Source: Arenimonas sp. SCN 70-307 (lineage in GTDB: Bacteria > Pseudomonadota > Gammaproteobacteria > Xanthomonadales > Xanthomonadaceae). Taken from it: a stretch of DNA of 33,882 bases. Positions 17,855-24,205 of the stretch are shown here, piece after piece (within the stretch, counting starts at the first letter, position 1; every line of letters starts with the position of its first letter). The translations under genes and the position numbers were made by a program. Location: assembly GCF_001724815.1 (NCBI RefSeq), contig NZ_MEDO01000023.1:1-33882 (forward strand), given 5' to 3'. The notes under the pieces are model-generated. The model was not told where the DNA came from and made no database searches. It saw only the letters and a program-made list of their open reading frames with translations.

Positions 17855-20800
17855 GTGACCCCGATCCTGAGCCCTGAACTGCCCGGCGCGCCCTCGGAGC
17901 TGCGCGCCCGGATCACCGCGGCCTACCACCGCGACGAGGCCGAGCACCTGGCCGAACTGCTCGAACAGGCCCGCCTGCCGGCCGACCAGCAGGCCCGGGT
18001 GCAGGCCACGGCCGAGGCCCTGGTGGGCCGCACCCGCATCCGCGCCGCCGACCCGGGCATGGTCGAGGCCTTCATGCGCCAGTACGACCTCTCCAGCGAG
18101 GAAGGCGTGCTGCTGATGTGCGTGGCCGAGGCCCTGCTGCGCATCCCCGACCGCGCCACCGCCGACAAGCTCATCCGCGACAAGCTCGGCGACGCCGACT
18201 GGGACCGACACATGGGCCAGTCGAGCTCGGTGCTGGTCAACGCCTCCACCTGGGGCCTGATGCTGACCGGCCGCATGGTCAACCTGGCCGAGGAAACCCG
18301 CCGCAACGCCATCGGCGCCTTCCGCCGCCTGGTGGGCCGGGCCGGCGAGCCGGCCATCCGCCTGGCCGTGCGCCAGGCCATGAAGATCATGGGCCACCAG
18401 TTCGTCATGGGCCGCACGATCGCCGAGGCGCTCGAGCGCAGCCGCAAGGGCGAGCAGGCCAAGTACCTGTATTCGTTCGACATGCTGGGCGAGGCGGCCT
18501 TCACCCAGGCCGACGCCGACCGCTATTTCCGCGCCTACCGCGACGCCATCGGCGCGATCGGCGCCGGCGGCCCCTTCCCGGACGTGTTCGCCGCGCCCTC
18601 GATCTCGGTCAAGCTCTCGGCCCTGCACCCGCGCTACGAGCTGGCCAAGCGCGCCCGCGTGCAGGCCGAACTCACCCCGCGCGTGCTCGAGCTGGCCAGG
18701 CTGGCCAAGTCGCACGGCATCGGTTTCACCATCGACGCCGAGGAGTCCGAGCGGCTCGAGCTGAGCCTGGACGTGATCGCCGGCGCTTTCGCCGATCCGA
18801 CCCTGGACGGCTGGGAGGGCTACGGCCTGGCCGTGCAGGCCTACCAGAAGCGCGCGCCCTTCGTGATCGACTTCCTGGCCGACCTGGCCCGCAAGACCGG
18901 CCGCCGCATGCCGATGCGCCTGGTGAAGGGCGCCTACTGGGACAGCGAGGTCAAGAAGGCCCAGGCCGAGGGTTACCACGGCTACCCGGTGTTCACCCGC
19001 AAGGCCAACACCGACGTGAGCTACCTGGCCTGCGCGCGCCGCATGCTGGCGGCCAGCGACGCCATCTACCCGATGTTCGCCACGCACAATGCGCAGACCA
19101 TCGCGGCGATCCATCACTACGCCGCCGGTGCGCGCTTCGAGTTCCAGAAGCTGCACGGCATGGGCGACGATCTTTATGCCGAGGTGATTCCGGCGGACAG
19201 GCTGGGCGTGCCCTGCCGCGTGTACGCGCCGGTGGGCTCGCATGAGGACCTGCTGCCCTACCTGGTGCGCCGCCTGCTCGAGAACGGCGCCAATTCCAGC
19301 TTCGTCAACCGCATCACCGACGAATCGCTGCCGGCCGCCGAACTGGTGGCCGACCCGGTGGCCACCGTCGCCGGCTACGCCAGCAAGCCGCACACCCGCA
19401 TCCCCCTGCCGCGCGACCTCTACCAGGCCGCCGGCGAAGACAGGACCAACTCCATGGGCGCCAACCTCGCCAACGACGACACCCTCGCCACCCTCGCGCG
19501 CGACATCAACGCCGCGCTCAAGCCGGTTTCGGCCACGCCGCTGGTGCCGGGCGCCAGCGCCTCGGGCGCGCCGGTGGCGGTGAGCAACCCGGCCGACCGC
19601 CGCGAGCGCGTGGGCGAATACCTGCCCGCCGACGCCGCGATGGTGGACAAGGCCATCGCCAATGCCGTGGCCGCGCAGCCGGGCTGGGACGCGATGCCCG
19701 CCGCCAGCCGCGCGCTGGTGCTCGAGCACGCCGCCAACCTGATGGAGCAGCGCCTGCCGCAGTACATCGCCATCTGCGTCAAGGAAGCCGGCAAGTCGCT
19801 GGCGGCCTCGGTGGCCGAGGTACGCGAGGCGGTCGACTTCCTGCGCTACTACGCCATGCAGGCGCGCAAGCTGCTGGCCCAGCCCGAGAAGCTGCCCGGC
19901 CCCACCGGCGAATCGAACGAGCTGTGGCTGCACGGCCGCGGCGTGTTCGTCTGCATCAGCCCGTGGAATTTCCCGCTGGCCATCTACATCGGCCAGGTGG
20001 CCGCGGCCCTCGCCGCCGGCAACAGCGTGCTGGCCAAGCCGGCCGAGCAGACGACGCTCACGGCGTTCCTGGCCACCCAGCTGCTGCATGAGGCCGGCGT
20101 GCCCAAGGACGTGCTGCAGCTGCTGCCGGGCGACGGCGCCACCGTCGGCGCCGCGCTCACCCGCGACCCGCGCGTGGCCGGCGTGTGCTTCACCGGCTCG
20201 ACCGAAACCGCCTGGGCGATCAACCGCGCCCTGGCCGCGCGCAACGCGCCCATCGCCACGCTCATCGCCGAGACCGGCGGCCAGAACGCGCTGATCGCCG
20301 ACTCCTCGGCCCTGCCCGAGCAGCTGGTGAAGGACGCGATGACCTCTGCCTTCGACTCGGCCGGCCAGCGCTGCTCGGCGGCGCGCGTGCTGTTCGTGCA
20401 GGCCGACATCGCCGACAAGGTGATCGGCATGCTCGCCGGCGCGATGGACGAGCTGACCGTGGGCGACCCGGCCCTGCTGAGCACCGACGTCGGCCCGGTG
20501 ATCGACGAGGACGCCCGCAAGGTGCTCGCCGACCACGCCGCGCGCATGGACAAGGAGGCCAGGCTGATCAAGGAAGTGAAGCTGCCGGCCTCGGCCGAAC
20601 ACGGCTGCTTCTTCGCGCCGCGCGCCTACGAACTCAACTCGCTCTCGCAGCTCACCCGCGAGGTGTTCGGCCCGGTGCTGCACGTCATCCGCTACCAGGC
20701 CGACCAGCTCGACCAGGTGCTGGCCGACATCAACGCCACGGGCTACGGCCTGACCCTCGGCATCCACTCGCGCATCGACGCCACGGTCGAGAAGATCGCC

Positions 20801-21010
20801 CGCACCGTGCGCGTGGGCAACTGCTACGTCAACCGCAACCAGGTCGGCGCGGTGGTGGGCGTGCAGCCCTTCGGCGGCGAGGGCCTGAGCGGCACCGGCC
20901 CCAAGGCCGGCGGCCCGCACTACCTGCTGCGCTTCGTCTCCGAGCGCACGCTCACCGTCAACACCACCGCGGCCGGCGGCAACGCCTCGCTGCTCACGCT
21001 CGACGACTGA
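17855..21010 (+). CDS. putA: Bifunctional proline dehydrogenase / L-glutamate gamma-semialdehyde dehydrogenase
   Basis: PutA oxidises proline to glutamate in two steps, using FAD then NAD+. The protein has 1051 residues. The N-terminus starts directly with the arm domain, with no ribbon-helix-helix DNA-binding domain as in E. coli PutA (about 1320 residues). The dehydrogenase barrel carries MRLVKGAYWDSEVKKA, FATHNAQTI, FQKLHGMGDDLY and RVYAPVGSHEDLLPYLVRRL. The aldehyde dehydrogenase part has SPWNFPLAIYIGQV, FTGSTETAW, E806 (ETGGQNAL) and the catalytic C840 (GQRCSAAR). It is therefore an enzyme without the autoregulatory repressor activity. Start GTG at 17855. It is monocistronic, with a hairpin after the stop. 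Confidence 0.97.
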   Translation: MTPILSPELPGAPSELRARITAAYHRDEAEHLAELLEQARLPADQQARVQATAEALVGRTRIRAADPGMVEAFMRQYDLSSEEGVLLMCVAEALLRIPDRATADKLIRDKLGDADWDRHMGQSSSVLVNASTWGLMLTGRMVNLAEETRRNAIGAFRRLVGRAGEPAIRLAVRQAMKIMGHQFVMGRTIAEALERSRKGEQAKYLYSFDMLGEAAFTQADADRYFRAYRDAIGAIGAGGPFPDVFAAPSISVKLSALHPRYELAKRARVQAELTPRVLELARLAKSHGIGFTIDAEESERLELSLDVIAGAFADPTLDGWEGYGLAVQAYQKRAPFVIDFLADLARKTGRRMPMRLVKGAYWDSEVKKAQAEGYHGYPVFTRKANTDVSYLACARRMLAASDAIYPMFATHNAQTIAAIHHYAAGARFEFQKLHGMGDDLYAEVIPADRLGVPCRVYAPVGSHEDLLPYLVRRLLENGANSSFVNRITDESLPAAELVADPVATVAGYASKPHTRIPLPRDLYQAAGEDRTNSMGANLANDDTLATLARDINAALKPVSATPLVPGASASGAPVAVSNPADRRERVGEYLPADAAMVDKAIANAVAAQPGWDAMPAASRALVLEHAANLMEQRLPQYIAICVKEAGKSLAASVAEVREAVDFLRYYAMQARKLLAQPEKLPGPTGESNELWLHGRGVFVCISPWNFPLAIYIGQVAAALAAGNSVLAKPAEQTTLTAFLATQLLHEAGVPKDVLQLLPGDGATVGAALTRDPRVAGVCFTGSTETAWAINRALAARNAPIATLIAETGGQNALIADSSALPEQLVKDAMTSAFDSAGQRCSAARVLFVQADIADKVIGMLAGAMDELTVGDPALLSTDVGPVIDEDARKVLADHAARMDKEARLIKEVKLPASAEHGCFFAPRAYELNSLSQLTREVFGPVLHVIRYQADQLDQVLADINATGYGLTLGIHSRIDATVEKIARTVRVGNCYVNRNQVGAVVGVQPFGGEGLSGTGPKAGGPHYLLRFVSERTLTVNTTAAGGNASLLTLDD

Positions 21011-21866: not shown

Positions 21867-23480
21867 ATGTACCTCGGGCACTACGGCCTGGACGAGCCGC
21901 CGTTCTCGATCACCCCGGACCCGCGCTTCGTCTTCCTGGGCGAGCGCCACCGGGACGCGCTCGCGCACCTGCTGTTCGGCGTCGGCCAGGGCGGCAGCGG
22001 CGGTTTCGTGCAGCTCACCGGCGAAGTCGGCACCGGCAAGACCACGCTCTGCCGCCTGCTGCTCGAACAGCTGCCGGAAAACGTGCGCGTGGCGCTGGTG
22101 CTCAACCCGCGCCTGAGCCCGGTGGAGCTGCTCGAGACGATCTGCGAAGAGCTGCGCATCGACACCACCGGCCGCAAGGGCAGCCTCAAGGGCCTGGTGG
22201 ACGCGCTCAACCACTACCTGCTCGACGCCTATGCGCAGGGCCTGCGCGTGGTGCTGATCATCGACGAGGCGCAGAACCTCAGCGCCGAGGCGCTCGAGCA
22301 GGTGCGCCTGCTCACCAACCTCGAGACGCCGACCCAGAAGCTGCTGCAGATCCTGCTGCTGGGCCAGCCCGAGCTGCGCGAGCTGCTGGCGCGCGAGGAC
22401 CTGCGCCAGCTGTCGCAGCGCGTCACCGCGCGCTTCCACCTCACGCCGATGGACGCAGCCGAAACCGAGGCCTACCTGCGGCACCGGTTCGCGGTCGCCG
22501 GCGGCAAGCGTTTTCCCTTCACCAAGCTGGCGGTCAAGCGCATCCACCACCACTCGGGCGGCGTGCCGCGGCTGGTGAACATCATCGCCGAGCGCGCGCT
22601 GCTGGCCGGTTATGCGCACGACGAAGCCCAGATCGGCGAGCGCTGGGTGGACCGCGCCGCGCGCGAGGCGCTGGCGCCGCGGCTGTCGAAGCTGCCGCGC
22701 CCGGACCTGGCCTGGGTCGTGGCCGGCGTGCTGGCCCTGGTCGTGCTGCTGCTGGCACTGCGCGATCGGCCGGTGCCGCCGCCGGCGACGGCGGAAGCGC
22801 CCGAGGCGGGCAGCACCGACGCGCCCGCGCCCGAGCCGGCCGTGCCCTACCTGCCCGGCGGCGAACTGGCGGCGCGCGTGCGCCTGGCCGGCGCGTCGTC
22901 CGAACCGGCCTGGGGCCAGCTGCTGGGCCTGTGGACCGTGCGTGCGCAGGAAGCCACGGTGGACCAGGCGCAGGCCTGCCCGCCGTCGCTGGCGCCCGGC
23001 CTGTATTGCCTGCGCGGCCGCGCCACGCTGGGCAAGCTCGCGGCGCTGGGTCGCCCGGCCCTGCTGCGCCTGCAAACCGCCGAGGGCGAGACCTGGGCCG
23101 TGCTGCTTGGCGCCGACGCGGTGCGCGTGCGCCTGTGGCTGGGCGGCGGCCGCTTCGACACCGACCGCCTGGCTTTCGAACGCGCCTGGCGCGGCGAGTA
23201 CGCCGCGCTCTGGCGTGGCCCCGATTTCCTGCTGCCCGCTCCGGTGCCCGGCGCCAGCGGCCCGGCCGTGGACTGGATCCACGACCGCCTGCGCGACCGC
23301 GCCGGCCTGCAGTCGCCCGATGCCGGCCCGGCCGTGTTCGACGCGGCCAGCGTGGCCGCGGTGCGCCGCCTGCAGGAAGCCAACGGCCTGGCCGCCGACG
23401 GCGTGGTCGGCCCGGAAACCCTGCTGGCGCTGGCGGCCCGCGAAAACGAGGGCCCGCGCCTGCGCCGGGTGCTGGACTGA
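21867..23480 (+). CDS. ExeA-like AAA ATPase with peptidoglycan-binding domain
   Basis: ExeA (GspA) with GspB helps place the type II secretion secretin in the peptidoglycan. The protein has 537 residues. The N-terminal AAA domain opens MYLGHYGLDEPPFSITPDPR, with Walker A GEVGTGKT (52-59) and Walker B LIIDEAQNL with D133/E134. One membrane segment (about 281-300) follows, then a proline/alanine linker and a periplasmic region (about 315-450). A C-terminal PG_binding_1-like domain (SVAAVRRLQEANGLAADGVVGPETLLAL) ends it. ATG at 21867 gives the exact family N-terminus; a much longer frame upstream is not family-like. The stop overlaps the gspB ATG. No other type II secretion genes are in the window. 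Confidence 0.92.
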   Translation: MYLGHYGLDEPPFSITPDPRFVFLGERHRDALAHLLFGVGQGGSGGFVQLTGEVGTGKTTLCRLLLEQLPENVRVALVLNPRLSPVELLETICEELRIDTTGRKGSLKGLVDALNHYLLDAYAQGLRVVLIIDEAQNLSAEALEQVRLLTNLETPTQKLLQILLLGQPELRELLAREDLRQLSQRVTARFHLTPMDAAETEAYLRHRFAVAGGKRFPFTKLAVKRIHHHSGGVPRLVNIIAERALLAGYAHDEAQIGERWVDRAAREALAPRLSKLPRPDLAWVVAGVLALVVLLLALRDRPVPPPATAEAPEAGSTDAPAPEPAVPYLPGGELAARVRLAGASSEPAWGQLLGLWTVRAQEATVDQAQACPPSLAPGLYCLRGRATLGKLAALGRPALLRLQTAEGETWAVLLGADAVRVRLWLGGGRFDTDRLAFERAWRGEYAALWRGPDFLLPAPVPGASGPAVDWIHDRLRDRAGLQSPDAGPAVFDAASVAAVRRLQEANGLAADGVVGPETLLALAARENEGPRLRRVLD

Positions 23481-24205
23481 TGTCGCTGATCCTCGAAGCG
23501 CTGAAGAAATCCGAAGCCGAGCGCCAGCGCGGGCAGGCGCCCGGGCTGTTCGTCGAACAGGCGCCGCTGGCGCGCGCGCGCCGCGAGGGTGCGCCGGCGT
23601 GGGCGTTTGCGCTGGGGGCGCTGTTGCTGGTGGTGCTGGCGGTGTTTGGCTGGCGGGAGTGGCAGCGCGTCGATGTCGTGACGCCCTCTCCCCAGCCCTC
23701 TCCCGCCAGCGGGAGAGGGAGCGAAGCGGCGGTTCCCCCTCCCACCTCCGTGGGAGAGGGCCGGGGAGAGGGGGCGGTCGTCCGTGCCGAGCCGCCCGCG
23801 CCCGTGCCGATGCCCTCTCCCCAGCCCTCTCCCGCCAGCGGGAGAGGGAGCCAATCGGCGGTTCCCCCGCCTGCGGGAGAGCGAAGCGAAGCGGCAGTTC
23901 CCCCGCTTGCGATTGAGGGAAGCGAAACGGCAGTTCCCCCTCTCCCGCCTGCGGGAGAGGGCCGGGGAGAGGGCAGCATCCCGCGCCTGGCCGACCTCGC
24001 CGCCGGCGAACGCGCCGCGCTGCCGCCGCTCAAGCTCACCATGCACGTCTTCGCCGACGACCCGGCGGCGCGCTTCGTCATCCTCGACGGCCGCCGCCTC
24101 GGCGAGGGCGCGATGGTGGCCGACGGCGTCGTGCTGCGCGGCATCGACCGCGACGGCGTGGTGATCGAGGCCCAGGGCCGCGCGCTGCGCCTGCCGAGGC
24201 CCTGA
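23480..24205 (+). CDS. gspB: General secretion pathway protein GspB with repeat-encoded linker
   Basis: GspB is the partner of ExeA/GspA. The 241-residue protein begins MSLILEALKKSEAERQRGQ, the usual cytoplasmic start, then has a membrane helix (about 39-58) and a C-terminal GspB domain (about 176-238: LKLTMHVFADDPAARFVILDGRR, GVVLRGIDRDGVVIEAQG). Between them, residues about 69-165 are low complexity (PSPQPSPASGRG, EAAVPP, GEGRGEG). This stretch is encoded by two REP/MITE-like inverted repeats lying in frame, and it nearly doubles the length of a typical linker. ATG at 23480 overlaps the exeA-like stop. The conserved ends are intact, so the protein is probably still functional. Confidence 0.9.
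   Translation: MSLILEALKKSEAERQRGQAPGLFVEQAPLARARREGAPAWAFALGALLLVVLAVFGWREWQRVDVVTPSPQPSPASGRGSEAAVPPPTSVGEGRGEGAVVRAEPPAPVPMPSPQPSPASGRGSQSAVPPPAGERSEAAVPPLAIEGSETAVPPLPPAGEGRGEGSIPRLADLAAGERAALPPLKLTMHVFADDPAARFVILDGRRLGEGAMVADGVVLRGIDRDGVVIEAQGRALRLPRP
23684..23772. repeat. REP/MITE-like inverted repeat inside gspB, copy 1
   Basis: It begins CCCTCTCCCCAGCCCTCTCC and ends GGGAGAGGGCCGGGGAGAGG-G, so the two ends are near-perfect inverted repeats. Inner hairpins are CTCTCCCGC-cag-CGGGAGAG on the left and CTCCCAC-ctcc-GTGGGAG on the right. It is 89 bp, read in frame as PSPQPSPASGRGSEAAVPPPTSVGEGRGEG. The same kind of repeat is normally intergenic. Confidence 0.85.
23813..23973. repeat. REP/MITE-like inverted repeat inside gspB, copy 2
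   Basis: It has the same ends as copy 1, but 161 bp because the interior holds extra units: the motif CGGC(A/G)GTTCCCCC occurs three times here and once in copy 1, coding for (E/Q)(A/S/T)AVPP units. It keeps an open reading frame throughout. Confidence 0.85.

Follow-up and report, generated by a model that had tools for sequence, protein, structure and literature searches.

In-frame copies of a dispersed BoxC/PIT-type palindromic repeat in the GspB linker of Arenimonas sp. SCN 70-307

Results

The gspAB locus and the domains of GspB

The window analysed here is a 33,882-nt stretch of the Arenimonas sp. SCN 70-307 genome (contig NZ_MEDO01000023.1), in which gspA and gspB follow each other on the forward strand (Table 1), the stop codon of gspA sharing bases with the start codon of gspB in an ATGA overlap; the gspA start was picked via codon score. 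GspB/OutB proteins are described as having a single membrane helix, a spacer and a periplasmic HR domain that binds the N0 domain of the secretin, and their gene often adjoins gspA (PMC9239104, accessible parts). Membrane helix, linker, HR domain and adjoining gspA are all found here, whereas the encoding of the linker by repeats sets the protein of Arenimonas sp. SCN 70-307 apart from that description. The AlphaFold2 model of GspB contains helices at residues 3-17 (low confidence) and 40-64, no predicted structure and low confidence for residues 65-168, and a confident beta domain at residues 169-239, with pLDDT 92-96 across blocks 171-240. Pfam recognised the T2SSB family (PF16537) at residues 181-239, with a score of 59.9 bits (cut-off 28.4). 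GspB of Dickeya dadantii (PDB 4wfw) was the sole solved relative found by sequence (E 0.0021) and also the best match to the model in fold comparison (probability 1.00, E 0.0029).

Table 1. Features of the 33,882-nt window, in window positions
Feature	Position	Strand	Description and basis
putA	17855..21010	+	repeat-free allele of the loop that carries a repeat in L220 and L291; comparison with relatives
gspA	21867..23480	+	AAA ATPase with peptidoglycan-binding domain; Pfam AAA_22, PG_binding_1
gspB	23480..24205	+	241 aa, one open frame running through the repeats; translation
Predicted membrane helix of GspB, residues 40-64	23597..23671	+	AlphaFold2 model; aligned in relatives
Triplex-motif repeat copy 1	23684..23719	-	encodes PSPQPSPASGRG; BoxC/PIT TM_ECO layout (PMC4666352, accessible parts)
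Triplex-motif repeat copy 2, first block degenerate	23737..23772	+	encodes about PPTSVGEGRGEG; inverted pair 78% complementary
Non-repeat linker between the pairs, residues 99-111 (AVVRAEPPAPVPM)	23774..23812	+	sequence
Triplex-motif repeat copy 3	23813..23848	-	encodes PSPQPSPASGRG
Three head-to-tail 36-bp units (SQSAVPPPAGER / SEAAVPPLAIEG / SETAVPPLPPAG)	23849..23956	+	repeat search, spacing 129/36/36
Triplex-motif repeat copy 4	23938..23973	+	encodes about PLPPAGEGRGEG
HR (secretin-binding) domain of GspB, residues 169-239	23984..24196	+	AlphaFold2 pLDDT; PDB 4wfw match

Repeat copies in the GspB linker

Two inverted pairs of a single 36-nt palindromic repeat, read in frame, code for residues 69-165 of GspB (positions 23684-23973), with copies 1 and 2 forming the first pair and copies 3 and 4 the second. 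The original prediction, made from the letters of the window, had placed two inverted-repeat elements with shared ends at these positions within gspB, and both the coordinates and the paired arrangement were borne out, the two elements being 94% identical over 63 nt at their head. Three of the four copies read CCCTCTCCC - 6-nt loop - GGGAGAGGG - 2 nt - GGGGAGAGGG, as in copy 1 on the minus strand (CCCTCTCCC-loop-GGGAGAGGG-CT-GGGGAGAGGG); copy 2 fails to fit the strict three-block pattern. The 13 residues that separate the pairs resemble an ordinary linker.

Stop codons are absent from all six frames of element 1 and from five of the six frames of element 2, and the frame of gspB stays open with the conserved parts on both sides intact, as had been claimed. 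The peptides PSPQPSPASGRG and EAAVPP, named beforehand as products of the repeats, are indeed encoded by them. The open frame and the intact domains point to translation through the repeats, for which GSEAAVPPPTSVGEGR is an example of a predicted tryptic peptide across the repeats, with GEGSIPR at the repeat exit. The expectation that hairpins would form in the mRNA agrees with the predicted RNA fold of the repeat stretch, which has an energy of -222.5 kcal/mol against a mean of -169.0 for shuffled sequences (z -9.06).

Besides the palindromes, the linker holds three head-to-tail 36-bp units (Table 1) and an additional copy of this unit at 23720-23755. The reiterated CGGC(A/G)GTTCCCCC units that had been listed with the inverted repeats do exist in gspB, but they lie outside the dispersed repeat: the 16-nt core of the unit, with at most two mismatches, was found 14 times on the forward and 4 times on the reverse strand of the genome, compared with 13 and 10 in the control search, and its only exact matches, three in number, were all within gspB. 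The unit was rejected as part of the dispersed repeat for this reason, and its chance-level occurrence elsewhere in the genome marks it as a local in-frame 36-bp tandem expansion.

The repeat family in the genome

The genome searched comprises 2.93 Mb in 35 contigs. BLAST of the gspB repeat stretch against it gave 27 matches, both strands counted, among them 36- to 39-nt matches at 97-100% identity, and the palindrome was matched 19 times forward and 20 times reverse, compared with one and one for a reversed-pattern control. The palindrome matches group into 13 sites, several of them as pairs. With the flanks judged by eye, nine of these sites are intergenic, such as the one behind metK and the one separating rplY-like from pth-like genes (names read from the sequence), and four lie inside genes, so that the repeat is mostly intergenic, as foreseen, while gspB turns out to be one of several intragenic cases. 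The search for other intragenic copies that had been proposed yielded three more genes, encoding a 2-oxoacid dehydrogenase E2, a hydrolase-flavin monooxygenase (FMO) fusion and a member of the methylmalonyl-CoA-mutase family (all three assigned with Pfam), and all four intragenic sites are in frame. Taking a coding density of 88% as assumed, the probability of four or fewer of 13 sites falling in genes is 2e-6.

An automatic coding-score rule passed the E2 and FMO fusion sites and failed those in gspB and the mutase gene, which are called intragenic from their frame and homology; applied to the whole triplex-motif set, the rule gave two clear cases among the 13 (E2 and FMO) and one flagged 5' extension (L064). 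A separate GTAG-REP family is also present (56 matches, 40 distinct elements), of which the automatic rule classed one as an in-frame genic copy. This is an inverted GTAG-REP pair on contig 14 (L294:1501-1595), again located between two domains, here the lipoyl domain and the dihydrolipoamide dehydrogenase part of one protein. The genic share looks higher for the triplex motif (4/13 by eye vs 1/40 by the automatic rule; Fisher p 0.01), but the two sets were judged differently, and the figures do not establish that this motif enters genes more often than the GTAG-REPs.

Apparent frameshifts were observed in metK (L043, contig 3) and in the mutase gene (L041, contig 1), each upstream of a repeat copy, and these are probably assembly errors because metK is normally essential. 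An Rfam search of the window returned no match.

Layout of the repeat and its relation to transposases

The original prediction had classed the repeats as REP/MITE-like. Their layout is instead that of BoxC/PIT elements, and no transposase was found with them. At the sequence level, the repeat has the three-block layout of the BoxC/PIT/TM_ECO intrastrand-triplex motif, namely CCCTCTCCC - loop - GGGAGAGGG - short spacer - GGGG(A/T)GAGGG, which spans 34-37 nt in E. coli, with CCCTCTCCCTGTGGGAGAGGGCCGGGGTGAGGGC as one TM_ECO example (Table 1 in PMC4666352). According to the accessible parts of the same paper, the 23 TM copies of E. coli MG1655 are always intergenic, sometimes arranged as tandem inverted pairs, show no link with transposases and are associated with instability of the genome around them; in those parts, PIT elements show no in vivo effect and no promoter or terminator activity, and leave RNA polymerase unaffected (PMC4666352). 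The Arenimonas repeat shares the many copies, the tandem inverted pairs and the lack of a nearby transposase, but differs in that 4 of its 13 sites are genic and in frame, whereas the E. coli copies are intergenic only. The intergenic-only rule is a property of the E. coli MG1655 genome rather than of the motif.

In REPs linked to RAYT transposases, one end of the palindrome bears a GT(A/G)G head (PMC2817692, accessible parts), a feature absent from the sequence of the triplex-motif repeat. Four Y1_Tnp genes are present in the genome, and a further 41 matches came from 14 other genomes, chosen for many palindrome copies; the four own genes and 30 of these matches gave 34 Y1_Tnp loci of 2-3.3 kb each. 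Neither CCCTCTCC nor GGAGAGGG occurred in any of these 34 loci; GTAG/GTGG tags flank both sides in at least nine of them. A RAYT-REP identity of the repeat was rejected, since it lacks the GT(A/G)G head and flanks no Y1/RAYT gene among the 34 loci, and the GTAG-REP family of the genome is separate from it. The sequence GGGGAGAG fits GGGGWSAS, the consensus of terminal inverted repeats (TIRs) beside some tyrosine transposases (PMC3733652, accessible parts).

gspB in relatives

A gspB match was found in 49 of 61 genomes, own included, and 12 were without one. The comparison with relatives had been set beforehand as the refuting test: CCCTCTCCC or GGGAGAGGG was found in none of 29 gspB loci of relatives, some of them partial, and the repeat matches intergenic copies in its own genome, so that on these data the insertion origin was not refuted. 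GspB has 241 aa here, compared with 214-350 aa in 18 relatives measured, and its linker, delimited by one rule, has 124 residues vs 93-234; the linkers of these 18 relatives are ordinary Pro/Ala-rich sequences with a Gly fraction of 0-0.09, compared with 0.13 here. Judged from these sequences, the repeat DNA occupies the place of the native linker and is not added on top of it. Unrelated short GC-rich palindromes are present in the gspB linkers of several relatives (e.g. L012, L029, L033), implying that such linkers can hold palindromes without the triplex repeat.

When GspB proteins of 14 relatives were aligned, the linkers proved too divergent to align through. In the nearest relative, G021, contig ends interrupt gspB within the linker (L213 and L214; contigs 6 and 7), the visible parts of which are Pro/Ala-rich and free of the triplex repeat. 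Because the relatives' linkers do not align and that of G021 is split, we infer the insertion in gspB by analogy with the FMO fusion and PutA.

The same repeat in frame in other genes

In E2, the repeat follows the E3-binding domain (147-182) and precedes the catalytic domain (242-446) (Pfam). Among 22 E2 linkers extracted out of 30 loci, own included, three carry the triplex repeat and three the GTAG/GTGG type. In the fusion protein, the repeat separates the alpha/beta hydrolase (74-268) from the flavin monooxygenase (from about 331) (Pfam). This junction is short and repeat-free in eight relatives and holds a full inverted pair in Arenimonas sp. SCN 70-307; as a separate hit, G023 has a single copy in it. 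On contig 9 (L088, 50701-53352), one hydrolase-monooxygenase fusion gene has three inverted triplex-repeat pairs, located ahead of it, within it and behind it.

A loop in the proline dehydrogenase domain of PutA carries the repeat in frame, in one place, in G003 (L220) and G023 (L291), where it reads PSPQPLSREGRG and PSPQPLSPEGRR; the window itself contains a repeat-free allele (Table 1). Further in-frame cases in relatives concern a DEAD-box helicase in G003 and a molybdopterin oxidoreductase in G023. Seven genus genomes were picked for many palindromes, of which G005 and G008 yielded none under the asymmetric pattern, and in the remaining five relatives 5 of 43 elements were intragenic and in frame, seven having passed the automatic rule and two (L226, L235) having been dropped with a non-coding upstream flank. 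No frame-breaking copies were seen among the 43, although the rule would list such cases poorly. Gains in genes with repeat-free alleles in relatives provide positioned insertion events, with the likely ends of the moving unit, which makes mobility testable.

The mutase loop

The linker of the methylmalonyl-CoA-mutase family was compared over 110 loci, taken from Lysobacterales and from further relatives of that order, which gave 86 distinct linkers (other extractions gave 85 distinct, with 5 duplicates and 20 missed, and 91 rows). Either repeat is present in frame in 16 of the 86 (L153-L182, L308-L387), namely 10 of the triplex type and 6 further ones of the GTAG/GTGG type, L160 matching both motifs. 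Equal-length windows taken from the sequence that precedes the linker in these loci gave a count of 21/2811 (Fisher 7e-16 vs 16/86), with motif definitions that were fixed after viewing the sequences. The own mutase loop carries the triplex motif, while the nearest relative G021 (L155) has in the same place a 21-nt GTAG-REP core that is found throughout the Arenimonas sp. SCN 70-307 genome.

On a mutase tree built by a quick method with the linker left out (89 rows, 84 different; 19 rows labelled repeat-bearing, with the near-variants L317 and L328 labelled by hand), repeat presence needs at least 15 changes, compared with a mean of 17.1 (range 13-19) for shuffled labels, so that its distribution over the tree is close to a random scatter; support is modest, 33 of 81 inner branches being under 80, and the change counts do not separate gain from loss. 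G016 and G019 share their mutase linker with records of A. donghaensis and A. malthae, which puts the genus as Arenimonas. L310, from a record named Rhizobium sp. (MAG B101), has a mutase linker identical to that of the Arenimonas-group genome G022 and looks misnamed.

Discussion

The idea that a dispersed repeat has been turned into protein-coding sequence is supported by these results, and we consider it very probable that the periplasmic linker of GspB is mostly repeat-derived, through insertion of BoxC/PIT-type pairs and tandem growth that were tolerated as a flexible spacer. Inverted pairs of the dispersed palindrome would have arrived in the linker and taken the place of much the greater part of its native Pro/Ala-rich sequence, with one pair growing through in-frame 36-bp tandem duplication. 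The resulting PSPQPSPASGRG / EAAVPP / GEGRGEG peptide would most likely be a plain flexible tether from the membrane helix to the secretin-binding HR domain, in a disordered spacer whose length and flexibility would count more than its sequence. The repeats would persist because they are almost stop-free in any frame, their lengths keep the frame and the spacer is disordered. We surmise that most landings in genes are lost, given that just 4 of the 13 sites fall inside genes although the genome is presumably gene-dense (density assumed), and that those in frame in disordered spacers or loops survive. Both the neutral spacer function and the mobility of the repeat are what we infer from this pattern.

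It is unlikely that a Y1 tyrosine transposase (RAYT or TIRYT) of the genome mobilises the repeat in trans as its non-autonomous partner. The four Y1_Tnp genes of the genome, one of them flanked on both sides by GTAG-REP pairs (L121) and another with such a pair about 1.2 kb away (L122), the 56 own copies of the GTAG-REP family and the fit of GGGGAGAG to the TIR consensus (PMC3733652) would agree with mobilisation of this kind, yet all 34 Y1_Tnp loci lack CCCTCTCC and GGAGAGGG despite the choice of copy-rich genomes, at least nine of these loci have GTAG/GTGG tags on both sides, the repeat is without the GT(A/G)G head, and the E. coli motif is described as likewise free of transposase association (PMC4666352, accessible parts).

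We regard it as quite unlikely that the repeat is kept for its nucleic-acid structure, with a hairpin or triplex in gspB DNA or mRNA that delays the polymerase or the ribosome on the way from the membrane segment to the HR domain, or else adjusts mRNA stability, the peptide being incidental. The very stable predicted RNA fold of the gspB stretch speaks for such a role, but PIT elements lacked in vivo, promoter, terminator and RNA polymerase effects in the accessible parts of PMC4666352, the repeat also occupies loops of unrelated enzymes in which such a role is not obvious, and gspB of the relatives read manages without it. Decay of gspB, with repeats piling up in a gene that is no longer important, would be consistent with a single gene holding four copies of the repeat plus a tandem expansion, and with the 12 of 61 genomes without a gspB match; this is nevertheless very unlikely, as the frame is open, the HR domain scores well above the Pfam cut-off and gspA lies upstream with the stop/start overlap. 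A chance likeness of a Pro/Gly/Ser-rich linker in a GC-rich genome, or an assembly misplacement of the kind that the apparent metK and mutase frameshifts might bring to mind, is highly improbable in view of the 36- to 39-nt matches at 97-100% elsewhere in the genome, the single match of the reversed-pattern control, the 94% identity of the two elements over 63 nt, and an open frame in a gene well within its 33.9-kb contig.

A GspB linker derived mostly from inserted repeat pairs would have known precedents in kind. Rickettsia palindromic elements (RPEs) of 105-146 bp (PMC2229807) are found in frame in many unrelated genes and are translated (PMC10969869, PMC2229807, accessible parts), as palindromic repeats are in frame at 4/4 own intragenic sites here; compared by description, the Arenimonas elements differ in genus, in their 36-nt unit and GC-rich pairs of about 90-160 bp, and in residing mostly in linkers. 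GTAG/CGTC REPs were also reported within the ORFs of a number of species, among others of Xanthomonas and Stenotrophomonas, where linkers or loops were suggested to make them neutral (PMC3733652), a tolerance similar to the one proposed here, but that family has the GTAG/CGTC tag and often a RAYT. gspB, E2, mutase and PutA are absent from the intragenic REP cases in the accessible main text parts of that paper. Thus, in-frame palindromes as such are already known from RPEs and intragenic REPs. In the open-licence PMC literature, as far as its accessible texts go, we found no report that places BoxC/PIT motifs within ORFs or derives a gspB linker from repeats; as far as our searches show, the BoxC/PIT motif in genes, its presence as most of a GspB linker and the recurrence of unrelated repeat families in homologous linkers are new within that literature.

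We further propose, with about even confidence for and against, that certain linkers and loops, above all that of the acyl-CoA mutase, are recurrent in-frame landing pads for unrelated repeat families across Lysobacterales, that linkers of conserved enzymes, like the one of GspB, are regularly replenished from the genomic repeat pool, and that BoxC/PIT elements are mobile without a Y1 transposase. Unrelated repeat families in the mutase loops of near relatives offer a natural experiment on linker tolerance, and the filtering of open-frame repeats into linkers would be a route for repeat DNA to become protein.
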